Of a DNA stretch of 64,000 nucleotides, positions 42,545 to 49,007 are shown one piece after another. Source of the DNA: Streptomyces rubrogriseus (GTDB taxonomy: Bacteria; Actinomycetota; Actinomycetes; Streptomycetales; Streptomycetaceae); the NCBI RefSeq assembly GCF_027947575.1, contig NZ_CP116256.1, positions 4,712,001 through 4,776,000 of the forward strand, written 5' to 3'. Every line of letters begins with the position of its first letter. Position 1 is the first letter of the stretch. The notes beneath the pieces are model-generated. The model had not been told where the DNA came from and made no database searches. It saw only the letters and a list, made by a program, of their open reading frames with translations. The position numbers and the translations under genes were made by a program.

Positions 42545-42631
42545 GAGTCGGGCAGGCAGTGCGGCGCGGGTGCGGGTGCGGGTGCGGAAAATCGGGGTGC
42601 CCGCCCGCGCCCGGGGCGTTATCTTCGAGGC

Positions 42632-42700
42632 ATGAACGTCATCGGCAGGAACATCTTCGCGACCGCGCGAGCGACCAGCTCGCCGGTTGCCGCCGCCTGA
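42632..42700 (+). CDS. 22-codon alanine-rich leader peptide ORF
   Basis: MNVIGRNIFATARATSSPVA ending AA-stop (the last three codons are GCC GCC GCC before TGA). Six of 22 residues are Ala. It lies 138 bp upstream of the alanyl-tRNA synthetase-like gene, which is the gene such a leader should sense. TATCTT at 42620-42625 lies seven bases before the ATG, so the transcript may be leaderless, as for known Streptomyces cysteine leader peptides. Only GAGG directly at the ATG could act as a ribosome site. Confidence 0.55.
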   Translation: MNVIGRNIFATARATSSPVAAA

Positions 42701-42739
42701 CCTTCCCCCTTTCCCACCGGCGACCGGAAACGGTTCGTC

Positions 42740-42807
42740 GGTGGTTCACGTGGCGCTCCGCCACCTTCGCCCAGGTGCGAGGACCGCACGGTTCCGTTCT
42801 CCGGTCC
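42740..42807 (+). promoter_or_regulatory. Competing hairpins between leader ORF and AlaRS-like gene
   Basis: GTGGCG (42750-42755) pairs with CGCCAC (42759-42764); GGTGG (42740-42744) can pair with the same right arm (CCACC 42761-42765). A further stem joins GGACCG (42781-42786) with CGGTCC (42802-42807) around an inner ACGG/CCGT hairpin. Mutually exclusive stems after an Ala-ending leader are what attenuation needs. No T-box motif is present. Confidence 0.5.
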
Positions 42808-42838
42808 CCCTCCCGCCTCGAAGCGAAGGAGTCACCCC

Positions 42839-44053
42839 ATGGACACCGAGCGCGTCCTGAGCACGTTCGTCGAGTACTACGAGGATCAGGGCCATCGCCG
42901 GATCACCGGCTCGACACTGCTGCCCGAGCCGGGCGATCCCGTGCTGTTCACCAGCGCCGGCATGCATCCGCTCACCCCGTACCTGGAGGGCCGCCCCCAC
43001 CCGCTGGGCCGGCGGCTGGTCAACGTACAGCGCTGTCTGCGCACCACGGACCTGGACGAGGTCGGGGACGGCACGCATCTGACGGTCTTCGAGATGCTCG
43101 GCACGTGGTCGCTGGGCGACTACGAGGGCTCGCGAAGCCTCGACTGGGCCCACCGGCTGCTCACCGAGGGCCTCGGGGTCGACCCGGGCCTGCTGCACGC
43201 CACCGTGTACGGGGGCGGTGAGCAGGTCGGACCGGACGACGAGTCGCTGCGGCTGTGGCGGGAGCGCGGCGTTCCCGTGGAGCCGACGGTGGACGACAAC
43301 TGGTGGTCCAACGGGCCGGTGGGCCCCTGCGGGCCCGACTCGGAGATCTTCCTGTGGAGCGGTGACACCCCGCCCCGGTCCACGCCCACCGGCGACGACC
43401 GCTGGGTGGAGGTGTGGAACCACGTGATGATGCGCCACCGCCGACTGGACGACGGCCGCCTCGTGCCGCTTGGGCAGCGCAACGTCGACACCGGCCTGGG
43501 CCTGGAGCGCCTGGCCATGCTCCTGCAGGGCAAGTCCTCGGTGTTCGAGTGCGACGTCTTCGAGCCGTGGCGACGGCTGCTGCCCACCCTGTGGCCGCTG
43601 GACGAACCGTCGTTCCGGGTGGTCTGCGACCACCTCCGGTCGGCCGTCGTGGTCGTCGGCGACGGCGTCCGCCCGTCCAACACCGGCCAGGGTTACGTGC
43701 TGCGGCGCCTGGTGCGGCGGCTGCTCACCGTGCTGTGGCGGGAGGATCCCTCGCGCGGGCTCGGTGACCTGCCGGACGAGTTGGTCACGCACACCCTGGA
43801 CCACTTCCGGCAGGACGGCGACCCCGGCCTCCCCGGCCTCGTGCGGCGCCTGCTGGTGGAGGAGGAGCGCCGGTTCCGGCGGCTCCTGGAACGCGGCCGG
43901 AACGTGCTCGCCCGGCCCCGCTTCCGGGGCCCGCTGGGAGAGGAGGACTTCCACTACCTCCATGACACCCACGGTCTGCCGCGCGAGCTGGTGACGAGCC
44001 TGCGCGAGGGCGAGTGTCCGCGATCGGGAGGCGTGGGCGCCGTTCGGCCGTGA
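42839..44053 (+). CDS. Short alanyl-tRNA synthetase paralogue, catalytic core only
   Basis: 404 residues against about 880 for full AlaRS. Class II motifs are intact: motif 1 LFTSAGMHPLTPYLEG, motif 2 NVQRCLRTTDLDEVG followed by VFEMLGTWSLGDY, and motif 3 QRNVDTGLGLERLAMLLQG. It continues through part of the tRNA-recognition helices (RRLVRRLLTVL, HDTHGLPRELV). The editing domain, its zinc site and the C-Ala domain are missing. So it could charge Ala but not edit. The HPLGRRLVNVQRCLRT wording resembles AlaRS of distant bacterial lineages more than the usual streptomycete form, hinting at transfer. It sits behind an Ala-rich leader ORF. Confidence 0.9.
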   Translation: MDTERVLSTFVEYYEDQGHRRITGSTLLPEPGDPVLFTSAGMHPLTPYLEGRPHPLGRRLVNVQRCLRTTDLDEVGDGTHLTVFEMLGTWSLGDYEGSRSLDWAHRLLTEGLGVDPGLLHATVYGGGEQVGPDDESLRLWRERGVPVEPTVDDNWWSNGPVGPCGPDSEIFLWSGDTPPRSTPTGDDRWVEVWNHVMMRHRRLDDGRLVPLGQRNVDTGLGLERLAMLLQGKSSVFECDVFEPWRRLLPTLWPLDEPSFRVVCDHLRSAVVVVGDGVRPSNTGQGYVLRRLVRRLLTVLWREDPSRGLGDLPDELVTHTLDHFRQDGDPGLPGLVRRLLVEEERRFRRLLERGRNVLARPRFRGPLGEEDFHYLHDTHGLPRELVTSLREGECPRSGGVGAVRP

Positions 44054-44060
44054 CGCGCCG

Positions 44061-44996
44061 TCACCCGGTGCGGCGCGTGGGGCGCCGGTGGCGCTGGACG
44101 GCTCCGTAGGTCTCTTCGAGGGCGGTCGTCGCCGCGTCGTAGGAGCGCTGGGCGACGCCGACGAAGAGACAGTCGATGACGGCCAGTTGGGCGATGCGGC
44201 TGACGGTCGCTCCGGAACGGAACGGCGTTTCCCGGGCACAGGTCGTCAGCACCAGGTCGGCGCCGGTCGCGAGCGTGGAGCCCGGGTCGTTGGTCAGGGC
44301 GATGGTGGTGGCTCCGCGTTCGGCCGCGGCCTGGAGGGGCTCGGTGGTGTCCTCGGTCTCCCCGGAGTGGGAGACGGCGAGGGCCACGTCGCCGGGCCCC
44401 AGCAGGGCGGTCGCGGTGAGCGCCGCGTGCCGGTCGCTCCAGATGAAGGCCATCCGGCCTATGCGGTGCAGCTTCTGGTGCAGGTCCTGGCCGACGAACG
44501 CGCTGGCCCCCACGCCGAAGATGTCGACCCTGCGGGCCTTGGCGACCGCGTCCACCGCCCGGCCAAGGGCGTCGACGTCGAGTGCGGCGCCCGAGTCCTC
44601 CAGGGCCCGCACCTCGTTGTAGATGATCTTGCTGACTATCCGGTCCAGCGAGTCCGTCGGACTGATGTCGGTGCCGCCCTGCGCCGCCCGCTCGCCGCCC
44701 AGCGCGTGCTCCCGCGCGGCGGCGGCCGCCAGCGCCAGGCGCAGCTGGGGGTAGTTGCCCGTGCCGATCGTGCGGCAGAACCTCATCACGGTGGCCGCCG
44801 AGGTGCTCGCCCGCTCCGCCAGCGCGTGGATGGACAGTTCCGCGACCTGACCCGGGTCGGCGAGGACCGCGTCGGCCACCCGCCGCTCCGAGGGTGCCAG
44901 GGAGGGCCGGGCGGCGCGGACGCGCGTGAGGATGTCGGCGAGCGGGGCGTCCTGGGCGGACGGCTCCGGCACGCGGGACGAGGACTGGCGGACCAT
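44061..44996 (-). CDS. MurR/RpiR-family transcriptional regulator
   Basis: A 311-residue regulator. The HTH_6 domain (about 25-100) includes SERRVADAVLADPGQVAELSIHALAERASTSAATVMRFCRTIG. The SIS sugar-phosphate domain (about 145-285) reads RVDIFGVGASAFVGQDLHQKLHRIG and [25 protein letters not shown]. It should sense a phosphorylated amino sugar. AGGAGGGG precedes ATG 44996. It is divergent from the kinase-symporter-AnmK operon, whose likely signal molecules (GlcNAc-6-P or MurNAc-6-P) fit this regulator type. It converges with the AlaRS-like gene (7-bp gap). Confidence 0.93.
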   Translation of the reverse strand: MVRQSSSRVPEPSAQDAPLADILTRVRAARPSLAPSERRVADAVLADPGQVAELSIHALAERASTSAATVMRFCRTIGTGNYPQLRLALAAAAAREHALGGERAAQGGTDISPTDSLDRIVSKIIYNEVRALEDSGAALDVDALGRAVDAVAKARRVDIFGVGASAFVGQDLHQKLHRIGRMAFIWSDRHAALTATALLGPGDVALAVSHSGETEDTTEPLQAAAERGATTIALTNDPGSTLATGADLVLTTCARETPFRSGATVSRIAQLAVIDCLFVGVAQRSYDAATTALEETYGAVQRHRRPTRRTG

Positions 44997-45003
44997 GGCC
45001 CCT

Positions 45004-45045
45004 CCTGGAAGTGGTGAGCACAGGCCTGGAAGTGGTGAGCACAGG
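45004..45045. repeat. Perfect 21-bp tandem duplication in the RpiR leader
   Basis: Two identical adjacent copies (45004-45024 and 45025-45045), each containing CCTGGAAGTGGTGAGCACAG, lie directly upstream of the RpiR gene's ribosome site. The unit is seven codons long, so an upstream in-frame start is not excluded, though poor. Confidence 0.85.
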
Positions 45046-45054
45046 GTAATGGGG

Positions 45055-45134
45055 TGACCCGAGGGGGTCAAAAAGTTACGCACCGACCAACACGACGTTA
45101 CTTATTGACATCCGGAGGGCGGCGTTCCCATACT
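45055..45134 (+). promoter_or_regulatory. Promoter and RpiR-type operator sites of the amino-sugar operon
   Basis: TTGACA (45105-45110) and CATACT (45129-45134) with an 18-bp spacer form a near-consensus promoter reading toward the kinase gene. Upstream lie a perfect palindrome TGACCC-GAGG-GGGTCA (45055-45070) and two GTTAC copies 22 bp apart (45075 and 45097), two helical turns. These are candidate sites for the divergent RpiR protein. Confidence 0.65.
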
Positions 45135-45212
45135 CGGACGGCGATCCGCACCGGTCACCGACGACCTGGTGGCTCTCGACGTGCCGGGTCACTCGGGCAA
45201 AGGGCGAGCCGT

Positions 45213-46214
45213 ATGACTTCAGTAGTGGCGGTAGATCTCGGGAAGACCGGTTGCCGCGCCATGCTGTGGAACAGCGCCGACCCGTCACGGGCCGTCAGCT
45301 CCGTGGCCGGTGCTCCCGGTCTGGCGGCGCCCGACGGCGTGGCCGCGGCGCGTGCGGCCGTGCGCGCCGCCGTCGAGCCGCTCCTTCGGGAACCGGGCGG
45401 TGACCGGCCCGAGTCCGTCCTCGTGGGCGCCGCCGGAGCGGCTTCGGCGCCCGCGGCCGCCCGGTCCCTGGTGGATGCCCTTCTGGAGGATCTGCCCGTC
45501 CGGGAGGCGGCTGTCACCAGCGACGCCGTCACCGCACACGCCGGCGCGCTCGGCGGCCGGGCCGGGGTGGTGCTCGCGATCGGCACCGGGTCGGTCGCCG
45601 TCGGCATCGGCGCCGACGGGACGTACGCACGCGTCGACGGCTGGGGCCCGCTGCTCGGTGACGACGGCGGCGGTGCCCGGATCGGCACGGCCGGGTTGCG
45701 CGCGGCCCTGCGGGCCCACGACGGGCGGGGCCCGGACACCGTGCTGCTGGACGCCGCCGCCGGCCTCTTCGGTGACCTCGAACGGCTGCCGGTGACCGTC
45801 GGACGGGACGGCAATCCCGCCCGTACGGCCGCCACGTTCGCCCCCGAGGTGGCCCGCGCCGCCGAGGCCGGGGACTCCGTCGCCTCGGCGATCGTCCGGG
45901 ACGCGGCCGCCGCCCTGGCCGAGACCGCGCTCGCGGCGGCCGGCCGGATCGCCGCGGGCGGCGAGCCGCTGCCGACGGCCGTCACCGGTGGGCTGACCGG
46001 TCTCGGCCCGGCCCTGATGGCTCCGCTGACCGCCGCCCTCGCCGGTTCCGGACTCCCCGTGCGGCTCACGTCCGCGCTCGGCGATCCCCTGGACGGGGCC
46101 CGCCTGCTGGCGCTGGACCACGCGACCCCTCACACCGCCCTCGTCGTCCGCGTCCGCCGGACGGCCGCCAACCCCCCTCTCCCCGCGCCGGCGACCCCAC
46201 CGGCCAGTGTCTAG
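45213..46214 (+). CDS. N-acetylglucosamine kinase-type BadF/BadG ATPase-fold kinase
   Basis: A 333-residue ASKHA kinase. The first phosphate loop is VVAVDLGKTGCRAMLW; the second is GVVLAIGTGSVAVGI followed by DGWGPLLGDDGGGARIG, the signature of eukaryote-type GlcNAc kinases. The adenosine segment TAVTGGLTGLGP is near the C-terminus. It probably phosphorylates GlcNAc or a related amino sugar taken up by the next gene's transporter. ATG 45213 lies behind CAAAGGGCG. It is first in a three-gene operon with the symporter and AnmK, divergent from RpiR. Confidence 0.88.
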   Translation: MTSVVAVDLGKTGCRAMLWNSADPSRAVSSVAGAPGLAAPDGVAAARAAVRAAVEPLLREPGGDRPESVLVGAAGAASAPAAARSLVDALLEDLPVREAAVTSDAVTAHAGALGGRAGVVLAIGTGSVAVGIGADGTYARVDGWGPLLGDDGGGARIGTAGLRAALRAHDGRGPDTVLLDAAAGLFGDLERLPVTVGRDGNPARTAATFAPEVARAAEAGDSVASAIVRDAAAALAETALAAAGRIAAGGEPLPTAVTGGLTGLGPALMAPLTAALAGSGLPVRLTSALGDPLDGARLLALDHATPHTALVVRVRRTAANPPLPAPATPPASV

Positions 46215-46222
46215 GAGCAAGC

Positions 46223-47794
46223 GTGCGCCAGCTCGACCTCGTGGTGATCGTGGTCTATCTGATCGGGATCGCCTGGATCGGCCTGCGGAAGGCAGGCCGG
46301 CAGAAGTCGGCGAAGGACTACTTCGTCGGTGAAGGCCACATGCCGTGGTGGACGGTCTCCTTCTCCGTCGTCGCCACGGAGACCAGTGTGCTGACGGTGA
46401 TCAGCGTCCCCGGCGGCGCCTACAGCGGCCAGGGGTTCGGCAACGTCGAACTCGCCCTGGGCTACGTCGTCGGACGCGTCGTCGTGGCCACGGTGCTGAT
46501 CCCCCTCTACAAGCGCGGCGGCTTCGTCAGCGCCTACCAGTACCTGGGCGACCGGTTCGGGCTGAAGCTGCAGGGGCTCGCCTCGGTGACCTTCGTGTTC
46601 ACCCGGCTCCTGGCCGAGGGCGTGCGGCTGTTCGCCTCCGCCATCCCGATCAAGCTGCTGCTCGACGAGTTCGGTGTGCACGCGAGCTACCGCGCGATCA
46701 TCATCGTGATCACCCTCATCACCGTGGTCTACACGTACCTGGGCGGCATCAAGGCGGTCATCTGGACCGACGCCATCCAGATGGTCCTCTACCTCGGCGG
46801 CGCGGTCCTCGCCGTGGCCGTGCTCTCCGCCCACGTCGGCGGTGACGGCTACGCGCGCGCCCTGGACGCCGGGAAGTTCGCGCTCTTCGACACCGACTTC
46901 GACCTCGCCCACATCCTCACCAGTCCGTTCGCCCTGCCCACGGCCATCGTCGGCGGCGCCATCTTCGCCATGGCCTCGCACGGCTCCGACCAGCTGATCG
47001 TCCAGCGCGTGCTGGCGACGCGGACGCTGCGCGAGGGCCAGAAGGCCATGATCGCCTCGGGTGTCTTCGTCACCGTCCAGTTCGCCGCGTTCTCCCTCGT
47101 CGGCGCGCTGCTGTGGTCGTACAACGAGGGCAGGTCCTTCGCGGAGCTGGGCCTGTCCAGCTCGGACAACCTCTACCCCGAGTTCATCCTGCACGGTCTG
47201 CCCGTGGTGGTCTCGGGACTGCTGGTGGCCGGCATCCTGGGCGCCGCGATGGGCTCGCTGTCCTCGGCGCTGAACTCCATGTCGAACTCGACGGTCGCCG
47301 ACATCATCCACAGCTTCTTCCGCAGTACACCGTCCGAGGAGGCGCTGCTCAGGCTCGCCCGCTGGATGACGCTGGTGTGGGCGACGCTCATGGCCGTCTT
47401 CGCCTGCGCCTTCAGCGCGAGCACGGGCAACGTGTACCTGACCGGTCTGACCATCGCCGGCTACACCTACGGCGCGCTGCTCGGCGCCTTCCTGCTGGGG
47501 CGGCTCGTCAAACGGGCCAACGAGGTCGACTCCGTCGTGGCCTTCCTGGTCACCATCGGGGTGATGACGTACATCGTGCGCGGGGTGAAGATCGACGTCA
47601 CCACCGGCGGGACCACGGTGTCCCAGGCGATCGCGGCCCAGTGGCTGGTGCCGATCGGCGTACTGATCACCTTGCTCGTCGGCGGTGTGCTGAGCCTGTT
47701 CCACCGGGCGCCGGAGCCCTCGGCGGCCCCGGCGCTCGACGACGAGCCCGGCGCCGGACCCGACCAGCTGACCACGACGGCCGGCCGGAACTGA
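46223..47794 (+). CDS. Sodium:solute symporter (SSS family)
   Basis: A 523-residue permease with about 13 membrane helices. Typical segments are LDLVVIVVYLIGIAWIGLRKAGRQKSAKDYFVGEGHMPWWTVSFS, ATETSVLTVISVPG and SSALNSMSNSTVADII, the last containing the Ser/Asn sodium-site pattern. Its place between an amino-sugar kinase and AnmK suggests that it imports a cell-wall-derived sugar such as anhydro-MurNAc, MurNAc or GlcNAc; SSS members for sialic acid and other sugars are known. The start GTG 46223 is 8 bp after the kinase stop, whose codon is part of the TAGGAG ribosome site. Confidence 0.92.
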   Translation: MRQLDLVVIVVYLIGIAWIGLRKAGRQKSAKDYFVGEGHMPWWTVSFSVVATETSVLTVISVPGGAYSGQGFGNVELALGYVVGRVVVATVLIPLYKRGGFVSAYQYLGDRFGLKLQGLASVTFVFTRLLAEGVRLFASAIPIKLLLDEFGVHASYRAIIIVITLITVVYTYLGGIKAVIWTDAIQMVLYLGGAVLAVAVLSAHVGGDGYARALDAGKFALFDTDFDLAHILTSPFALPTAIVGGAIFAMASHGSDQLIVQRVLATRTLREGQKAMIASGVFVTVQFAAFSLVGALLWSYNEGRSFAELGLSSSDNLYPEFILHGLPVVVSGLLVAGILGAAMGSLSSALNSMSNSTVADIIHSFFRSTPSEEALLRLARWMTLVWATLMAVFACAFSASTGNVYLTGLTIAGYTYGALLGAFLLGRLVKRANEVDSVVAFLVTIGVMTYIVRGVKIDVTTGGTTVSQAIAAQWLVPIGVLITLLVGGVLSLFHRAPEPSAAPALDDEPGAGPDQLTTTAGRN

Positions 47795-47831
47795 CCGCGT
47801 CCGGCCCGCTCAACCCTCGCAGGAGTACATC

Positions 47832-49007
47832 GTGCGTGTGATCGGCCTGATGTCAGGCACGTCCTACGACGCCATCGAGGCGGCCGCCGCGGACCTCGAA
47901 CTGCGGGGCGAGGCCCTGGTGATGCGCCCGCTCGGCCATCTCTCCGCCCCCTACCCGGACGGGCTGCGGGACCTGATCGCGGGCAGCCTGCCACCGGCGG
48001 CGGCGACGGTCGGGACCGTGGCCCGGCTCGACACCGGCATCGGGCAGGCTTTTGCCGACGTGGCCGTACGGGCGGTGCGCGAGCTGTGCGGGGGCGCCGC
48101 CGATCTGGTGGTCTCGCACGGGCAGACCGTGTACCACTGGGTGGAGGACGGTGCCGTGCGCGGCACCCTCCAGCTCGGCCAGCCCGCCTGGATCGCCGAG
48201 GCGACCGGTCTGCCCGTCGTGTCCGACCTGCGCGGCAGGGACGTCGCGGCCGGCGGTCAGGGGGCGCCGCTGGTGGCCATGACCGACGTGCTGGCCATGG
48301 CGGCACTGCCCGGCGTCCCCGCCGCCCTCAACCTCGGGGGGATCGCCAACGTCACCGTCGTCGCCCCGGGCGCCGAGCCGCTGGCCTTCGACACCGGCCC
48401 GGCCAACGCGCTGATGGACGCCGCCGTACGGCACTTCACCGGCGGTGCGGCCGCCTACGACGAGGACGGGCGCCGGGCCGGGGCCGGCCGGGTGGATCCG
48501 GGGCTGTTGCGGGTGCTGCTGGACGACCCGTACTACGGCAGGCCGGCTCCGAAGAGCACCGGCAAGGAGCAGTTCCACCTGCCCTATCTGCAGGCTGCGC
48601 TCGCCGTGGCGCCCGTGGCGGAACCCGACGACGTCCTGGCCACCCTGGCCCGGCTCACCGCCGTCACGGTGGCCGACGCCTGCCGGGCGCACGGCGTGAC
48701 GCGGCTCGTCGTGTCCGGCGGTGGCGCGCGCAACCCCGTGCTGATGGGCATGATCGCCGAGGAGCTGCCGGGGGTGGCCCTCGGTTCCAGCGACGCGCTC
48801 GGGCTGCCGTCCGACGCCAAGGAGGCACTTGCCTTCGCCCTCCTGGGCTTCCTGACCGTCAACGGCCTGCCCGGGGCGATCCCCTCGGGGACGGGTGCTC
48901 GCCGGGCGTCACTGCTCGGCAGCATCACGCCCGGGCGGGAGCCCCTGCGGCTGCCCGAGCCGGCCGGTGAGCCGCCCCGGGTGCTGCGCGTCGTCGGCGG
49001 GCCCTGA
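47832..49007 (+). CDS. anmK: Anhydro-N-acetylmuramic acid kinase
   Basis: Converts 1,6-anhydro-MurNAc and ATP to MurNAc-6-phosphate in murein recycling. Family motifs are intact: IGLMSGTSYDAIEAA at the N-terminus, VVSHGQTVYHW, LNLGGIANVTVV, LAFDTGPANALMD and the C-terminal VVSGGGARNPVLM. The length of 391 residues is typical. The start is GTG 47832 with GCAGGAG upstream. Being the third gene after the kinase and symporter, it completes a salvage module; the MurQ etherase needed next is not in this window. Confidence 0.95.
   Translation: MRVIGLMSGTSYDAIEAAAADLELRGEALVMRPLGHLSAPYPDGLRDLIAGSLPPAAATVGTVARLDTGIGQAFADVAVRAVRELCGGAADLVVSHGQTVYHWVEDGAVRGTLQLGQPAWIAEATGLPVVSDLRGRDVAAGGQGAPLVAMTDVLAMAALPGVPAALNLGGIANVTVVAPGAEPLAFDTGPANALMDAAVRHFTGGAAAYDEDGRRAGAGRVDPGLLRVLLDDPYYGRPAPKSTGKEQFHLPYLQAALAVAPVAEPDDVLATLARLTAVTVADACRAHGVTRLVVSGGGARNPVLMGMIAEELPGVALGSSDALGLPSDAKEALAFALLGFLTVNGLPGAIPSGTGARRASLLGSITPGREPLRLPEPAGEPPRVLRVVGGP

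Follow-up and report, generated by a model that had tools for sequence, protein, structure and literature searches.

The 22-codon ORF alaL, which precedes alaS2 in the analyzed window (the whole 64-kb stretch of Streptomyces rubrogriseus DNA), is probably a trp/his-type attenuator operated by the translating ribosome, acting on a gene for a minimal alanyl-tRNA synthetase (AlaRS) paralogue that would serve as a stress-induced standby enzyme. We observed a close linkage between alaL and alaS2 across genomes, as well as conservation of the ORF, the promoter elements, the hairpins P1 and P2 and the alternative helix formed by segments 2 and 3 (2:3). In the enterobacterial trp and his attenuators, the control codons are located in segment 1 and the alternative helices are 1:2, 2:3, and 3:4. 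The alaL leader differs from these in that no U-tract terminator was found and in that its leader ORF is of the leaderless type.

The leader itself is already known. In S. lividans TK24, alaL (SLIV_01313) is located 5' of ‘alaS’ (SLIV_01315), encodes an identical 22-residue peptide and is termed an alanine-dependent leader in the attenuator table of PMC8079986, a precedent of which the initial annotation was unaware. In the excerpts of PMC8079986 considered here, this entry is accompanied by neither a cross-species comparison nor an alaL structure, and the truncated nature of the paralogue is not mentioned. Open-licence papers, supplements excepted, yielded no study on how alaL works or how widely it is conserved, and no data on expression under alanine limitation were found in the open-licence literature. 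The present analysis adds comparative and structural evidence, a correction as to which codons are concerned, and the nature of the enzyme.

The alaL leader, its promoter, and its surroundings

The features of the region are collected in table 1. The initial annotation had described a 22-codon ORF with six Ala and a threefold GCC ending, 138 bp upstream of an AlaRS-like gene. The ORF proved exact to the base, with six Ala in MNVIGRNIFATARATSSPVAAA and GCC GCC GCC as the final three codons of alaL, and re-reading of the coordinates bore out the spacing, the gap from the alaL stop to the alaS2 ATG being 138 nt. A census of short ORFs in the 64-kb window (both strands, ATG or GTG starts, 14–30 codons) returned 427 ORFs, 22 of which contain at least six Ala; alaL was the only AAA-ending member of these 22, and none of the other 426 ORFs has a TANNNT hexamer at leaderless spacing as alaL does. 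This hexamer, TATCTT, stands 6 nt 5' of the A of the ATG, a leaderless-type spacing that agrees with the earlier suggestion of a possibly leaderless ORF.

Table 1. Positions of the promoter, leader, helix, and gene features around alaL and alaS2 (numbering of the window).
Feature	Position	Strand	Description
GAAAAT	42587..42592	+	Fits WblC/WhiB7 box GAAAWY; 4 nt 5' of the -35-like hexamer
-35-like hexamer GTGCCC	42597..42602	+	Register chosen by the analyst; 17-nt spacer to the -10
-10 hexamer TATCTT	42620..42625	+	Leaderless-type promoter; the ATG follows after 6 nt
alaL leader peptide ORF	42632..42700	+	22 codons, start ATG at 42632, stop TGA at 42698-42700; peptide MNVIGRNIFATARATSSPVAAA
Segment 1 (5' arm of P1)	42659..42672	+	Carries Ala codons 10, 12, and 14 (GCG)
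Segment 2 (3' arm of P1)	42678..42690	+	Codons 16–20
Part of the segment 2 region pairing with segment 3	42683..42692	+	Alternative 2:3 helix
Hairpin P2	42715..42743	+	Local, GAAA loop; competes with 2:3
Segment 3, CGGCGACCGG	42718..42727	+	Partner of segment 2; all except the last base in the P2 5' arm
Segment 4, CCGTTCTCCGG	42794..42804	+	Possible distal helix with CCGGAAACGG (42724-42733); conserved except for the bulged base
Shine-Dalgarno of alaS2, GAAGGAG	42825..42831	+	Sequence
alaS2	42839..44053	+	Minimal alanyl-tRNA synthetase paralogue, 404 aa, without editing or C-Ala domain

A GAAAWY motif immediately 5' of the -35 element constitutes the WblC box (PMC7157823), and the window displays both features of a WblC/WhiB7 promoter, namely the exact motif just 5' of the -35-like hexamer and a TANNNT -10. 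Among 92 distinct upstream regions of relatives, drawn from 106 of 109 loci, the TANNNT -10 was present in 91, and a strict GAAAWY at -55 to -38 in 36, against 0.19 expected from mononucleotide shuffles. In S. coelicolor, alaS2 (SCO7600) is a second gene beside the housekeeping alaS (SCO1501), exhibits a WblC box and a -10 as in the window, and depends on WblC and tetracycline, whereas alaS does not (PMC7157823); the excerpts of that paper considered here mention neither a leader peptide nor attenuation for SCO7600. The window alaS2 is presumably the orthologue of SCO7600.

Directly 5' of the leader region, an amidase gene (PF01425; 41060-42541) is encoded on the same strand, and a related ORF is found near alaS2 in 5 of 61 loci. 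The region 3' of alaS2 (44061-49004), which harbors genes for an RpiR/MurR-type regulator, a BadF-type kinase with weak NagK likeness, a sodium/solute symporter, and AnmK, resembles a cluster for recycling amino sugars or cell wall and is not conserved with alaS2. Every flanking gene family was confined to eight or fewer of the 61 loci, as counted with a crude ORF filter that recovered alaS2 itself in only 55 loci, and the leader and alaS2 therefore appear to act as a unit. In the genome of the window (G000, 4712001-4776000), alaS2 is mid-contig, at 4.75 of 8.41 Mb; the corresponding coordinates are 0.22 Mb for alaS2 in the closely related G245 and 0.27 Mb for alaL as listed for S. lividans. 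This discrepancy reflects either a permuted contig or a different location of alaS2 in closely related genomes.

alaL and alaS2 are closely linked

In a draw of 392 genomes of the genus, alaS2 (called at E <= 1e-70) was detected in 75, and the leader was present upstream of it in all 75. The coordinates of a core pattern (30 bases, up to 3 mismatches), situated about 110–210 nt 5' of alaS2, located 66 of these leaders, and the other nine, which have diverged and include one GTG start, were recognized by reading the sequence. The core pattern occurred in 68 of the 392 genomes, that is, in the 66 before alaS2, in one with a decayed alaS2 (G012), and in one without alaS2 (G194), where the match has 3 mismatches. 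In G012, an intact-looking leader is preserved 5' of the decayed gene (L148:2936-4000), from which it follows that the leader can outlast alaS2. A protein search retrieved 116 loci, and 115 of them likewise have the leader ORF; the remaining locus (L074) is cut by a contig end, and only the end of its leader is visible. Since the overall collection of 160 alaS2 loci comprises 30 fetched by the leader pattern and some species twice, we set this total aside and report the proportions of 115/116 and 75/75.

A class-wide draw of 296 genomes revealed alaS2 in nine, seven belonging to the genus and two to other families. These two (L146 and L147) carry both alaS2 and the leader, at 61–64% identity. 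A scan of GTDB contigs returned 175 alaS2-encoding stretches, and the titles among the best 80 of the 175 named Streptomyces, Kitasatospora, and Streptacidiphilus. A covariance model of the leader found the nine alaS2 genomes among the 296 of the class; as the leaders used to build it include those of these nine genomes or their close kin, its matches speak only to absence elsewhere. On the genome of the window, the model produced one strong match, the next best having an E-value of 1.23. Two other matches, in G629 (L172, E 8.4e-4) and at a second site in G335 (L173, E 0.0075), lack a leader-like core, resemble coding sequence, and are probably due to chance.

Alanine codons and competing helices

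The ORF, the Ala codons, and the stems singled out by the initial annotation are all kept in the relatives. Across 118 distinct leaders aligned from the stop, 14 of which are known solely from pattern-fetched loci, Ala was retained at codon -13 in 111, at -11 in 116, at -9 in 117, and at -3 (the first GCC) in all 118. The terminal GCC run is the weakest-conserved part, since Ala drops to 101 leaders at codon -2 and to 76 at codon -1, where Val is present in 41. This runs counter to the emphasis that the initial annotation placed on that run, and a modelled pause at the first GCC resembles termination. Of the ribosome-mediated attenuation proposed at that time, the logic of competing hairpins fits the data, and the weight given to the terminal Ala run is not supported. 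Judged by sequence, the leader ORF appears rich in cognate codons in 115 of 116 loci, with 4–9 Ala per peptide (mean 5.9 over the 118 leaders). A second alaS2 clade (support 97) comprises L120, L121, L124, L128, L130, L131, L133, L143, L145, L150, L152, L153, and L154; its leaders mostly exhibit GCAGCC opposite GGCTGC in P1, and its peptides mostly end in SPAADA or TAADA-like sequences, not SPVAAA.

The leader might alternatively be a general sensor of ribosome slowing by antibiotics, comparable to the whiB7/wblC or ARE-ABCF leaders, in which any drug halting the ribosome in segment 1 would induce alaS2 and the Ala codons would be present mainly as the GCG/GCC triplets that a GC-rich stem needs. 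The dependence of alaS2 on WblC and tetracycline (PMC7157823) and the stalling of Streptomyces ARE5 leaders by drugs (PMC12421871) are in line with such a sensor, as is the observation that the Arg CGA, Thr, and Ser codons of segment 1 are nearly as constant as the Ala codons; the conservation of the Ala codons is confounded with P1 pairing. We nevertheless consider this explanation improbable. Ala at codon -13 is specified by four different codons (GCG 82, GCA 21, GCC 5, and GCT 3), and 8 of the 118 leaders keep it even though the third base of GCC or GCT breaks a P1 pair. The Thr at -12 is replaced by Ala in 23 of 118 leaders, including the second clade and two relatives outside the genus, which, like the 4–9 Ala per peptide, argues against a purely structural need for these triplets. 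Furthermore, P1 could still form if a drug stalled the ribosome at the start codon, the site reported for ARE5 leaders.

It is very unlikely that the region is a structured 5' element only, with an untranslated or irrelevant ORF. Such an element would be consistent with a stem conserved at the nucleotide level, yet none of the 66 aligned ORFs loses its reading frame through an indel, 91 of the 92 upstream regions have the -10 at a spacing suited to a leaderless ATG, and Ala is kept through synonymous codons.

The helices that underlie the proposed attenuator were examined on the same leaders. The initial annotation had placed the stems after the ORF, which is correct for P2 (42715-42743) and not for P1 (42659-42690, 13 pairs), located inside it, where it makes up the constant half of the ORF. 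Its description of the stems as mutually exclusive was substantiated: P1 and the 2:3 helix (10 pairs) share 42683-42690, and 2:3 and P2 share 42718-42726. Folding of the region 42632-42745 resulted in -59.1 kcal/mol, whereas shuffled versions averaged -40.5 and none of 200 reached so low an energy (z -5.25). Over the 118 leaders, 97.4% of the cells were paired in P1, 98.7% in 2:3, and 86.4% in P2, against 11–53% in slid versions of the helices. Cells with two-sided changes (16 in P1, 14 in 2:3, and 25 in P2) exceeded any of 500 shuffles for each helix; counted as pairs showing such changes (1, 1, and 3, respectively), they were not above shuffles. The 2:3 covariation score was 0.063, hardly above the 0.061 of the version slid by -3, and covariation in the helices comes from few pairs. 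The structure that RNAalifold derived from a 66-leader alignment was mixed, with two-sided changes at one of its 35 pairs, and the counts on the named helices were used instead. The duplex energy of segment 2 with the downstream sequence was little better than that of shuffles (mean z -0.93).

At one position, the bases of segments 1, 2, and 3 vary in concert, reading A-U-A in 89 of the 118 leaders, G-C-G in 14, A-C-A in 7, G-U-A in 6, and G-C-A in 2; the seven A-C-A leaders break both P1 and 2:3 at that pair. In a phylogeny of the 116 AlaS2 proteins and the housekeeping AlaS, in which 13 of the 14 G-C-G leaders have a row, the G-C-G leaders form one group that implies one change (support 97). 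The triple change is clean but arose just once. In 109 of 118 leaders, the base that segment 3 contributes to the triple is paired in 2:3. The idea that 2:3 alone constrains this base was scaled back: its P2 partner in column 99 is missing in 96 of 118 leaders, but in 49 of these it could pair with column 97, leaving 47 of 118 with neither possible P2 partner.

Modelled ribosome positions, readout, and the AlaS2 enzyme

In the attenuator that we favor, transcription driven by WblC/WhiB7 would begin at the alaL ATG and yield a leaderless mRNA. With ample Ala-tRNA, the ribosome would reach the stop and cover segment 2, allowing P2 to form (off), and without translation P1 and P2 would form together (also off). 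A pause at Ala codon 10, 12, or 14 would mask segment 1 and free segment 2 for segment 3, and the resulting 2:3 pairing would prevent P2, leading to alaS2 expression. Alanine would be the signal of the leader.

We modelled pausing at equilibrium in 112 of the 118 leaders, in which codons -13, -11, and -9 correspond to the first three GCG-type Ala codons. The mean 2:3 probability was 0.42, 0.44, and 0.34 for pauses at these codons, compared with 0.06 in the ribosome-free state and 0.00 with the ribosome at codon -3 or at the stop; the mean P2 probability was 0.37, 0.36, and 0.38, versus 0.57 free, 0.54 at codon -3, and 0.52 at the stop. In the model, pausing at the first three GCG codons favors the antiterminator-like 2:3 helix, an effect that is absent when the ribosome pauses at the first GCC or at the stop. 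At equilibrium, 2:3 exceeded 0.5 in only 38–43% of the 112 leaders. In the window's own leader, 2:3 remained at 0.00 in every state, and, because P2 dominates throughout, this leader would need a kinetic (co-transcriptional) bias. When the helices were enforced, a calculation that covered 92 of the 118 leaders, 2:3 surpassed P2 in stability by a mean of 0.6 kcal/mol.

The suggestion that transcription, not translation, is the controlled step rests on analogy, since no U tract follows P2 (the only match of the terminator scan was upstream of the transcript) and access to the Shine-Dalgarno barely moves. The same sensor might instead have a translational readout, with structures 3' of P2 hiding or freeing the alaS2 ribosome binding site, a version that overlaps with the favored explanation, differs from it in the readout only, and appears possible but somewhat doubtful. 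Along with the missing U tract, it could draw on a putative distal 3:4 helix, in which CCGGAAACGG around the P2 loop would pair with conserved bases 5' of the Shine-Dalgarno (CCGTTNTCCGG). This helix is suggested by variation of its bulged base, which is C in 45 leaders, G in 17, A in 3, and T in 1 (66 leaders). Its mean z relative to mononucleotide shuffles is -2.58, and in 19 of 21 variants the leader's own pairing surpassed that with the consensus segment; two of the 21 (L012 and L110) were cut at a point past the Shine-Dalgarno, and a permutation of leaders gave p 0.06. With the distal helix enforced, mean Shine-Dalgarno access was 0.34, versus 0.25 with P2, and it was more than 0.1 higher in 36% of the 92 leaders and that much lower in none. 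Conversely, mean access stayed between 0.27 and 0.30 over the modelled ribosome positions and was 0.28 with 2:3 enforced; given this near constancy, Shine-Dalgarno sequestration was rejected as the switch and retained as a rival only.

As for the product of alaS2, the short AlaRS paralogue named in the initial annotation matches PF01411 (residues 7–388, 268 bits), that is, the class II catalytic core, and falls far below the cut-offs of two curated full-length AlaS models (290 of 529 and 281 of 457 bits); a longer alaS, an open frame of 893 aa that is 39% identical to AlaS2, is present elsewhere in the genome. The 116 intact AlaS2 proteins range from 386 to 404 aa, with 388 as the commonest length, in a set that omits L140 (293 aa) and the decayed L148. 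The L140 gene reaches just 293 aa from its start, reflecting a frameshift or a sequencing error. The window AlaS2 aligns to the catalytic fragments of solved AlaRS structures, and 19 of 21 selected motif positions are constant across the 116 proteins. At the equivalents of E. coli AlaRS N303 and D400, the residues reading G3:U70, Asn is present in 82 and Asp in 111 of the 116. On these sequence grounds, amino-acid activation looks intact and tRNA reading may be relaxed. No assay of an AlaS2-type minimal AlaRS was found in the open-licence literature. The role of alaS2 would be to keep Ala-tRNA up. A more elaborate proposal, to which we give rather less than even credence, is an AND gate in which the WblC promoter would report translation stress and the leader would pass the transcript only if the Ala codons are slow, driving a minimal, editing-free AlaRS whose relaxed G3:U70 reading would make Ala-tRNA, or another alanylated product, unlike the housekeeping enzyme.

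Two known systems invite comparison with alaL-alaS2. In the Ala T-box of Firmicutes, Ala-tRNA charging controls the AlaRS gene through an element that binds tRNA directly and needs no ORF; an Rfam scan of the window produced 0 matches to any of 4227 families, T-box included, at the gathering threshold. For trpL2-trpS of Streptomyces, experimental attenuation work exists. Like alaL-alaS2, this pair combines an aminoacyl-tRNA synthetase gene with a leader for the cognate residue (SLIV_21110, PMC8079986); unlike it, the residue is Trp, which has one cognate codon. The trpS gene SCO3334 is WblC-dependent (PMC7157823) and is probably orthologous to the trpS linked to SLIV_21110.

Together, these observations turn the leader into a testable module in model Streptomyces, with named codons and helices, and alaS2 indicates that a minimal AlaRS lacking both the editing and the C-Ala domain is widespread. 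If the proposed attenuation is true, a WblC promoter and a cognate-codon leader would place two layers of control on one gene.
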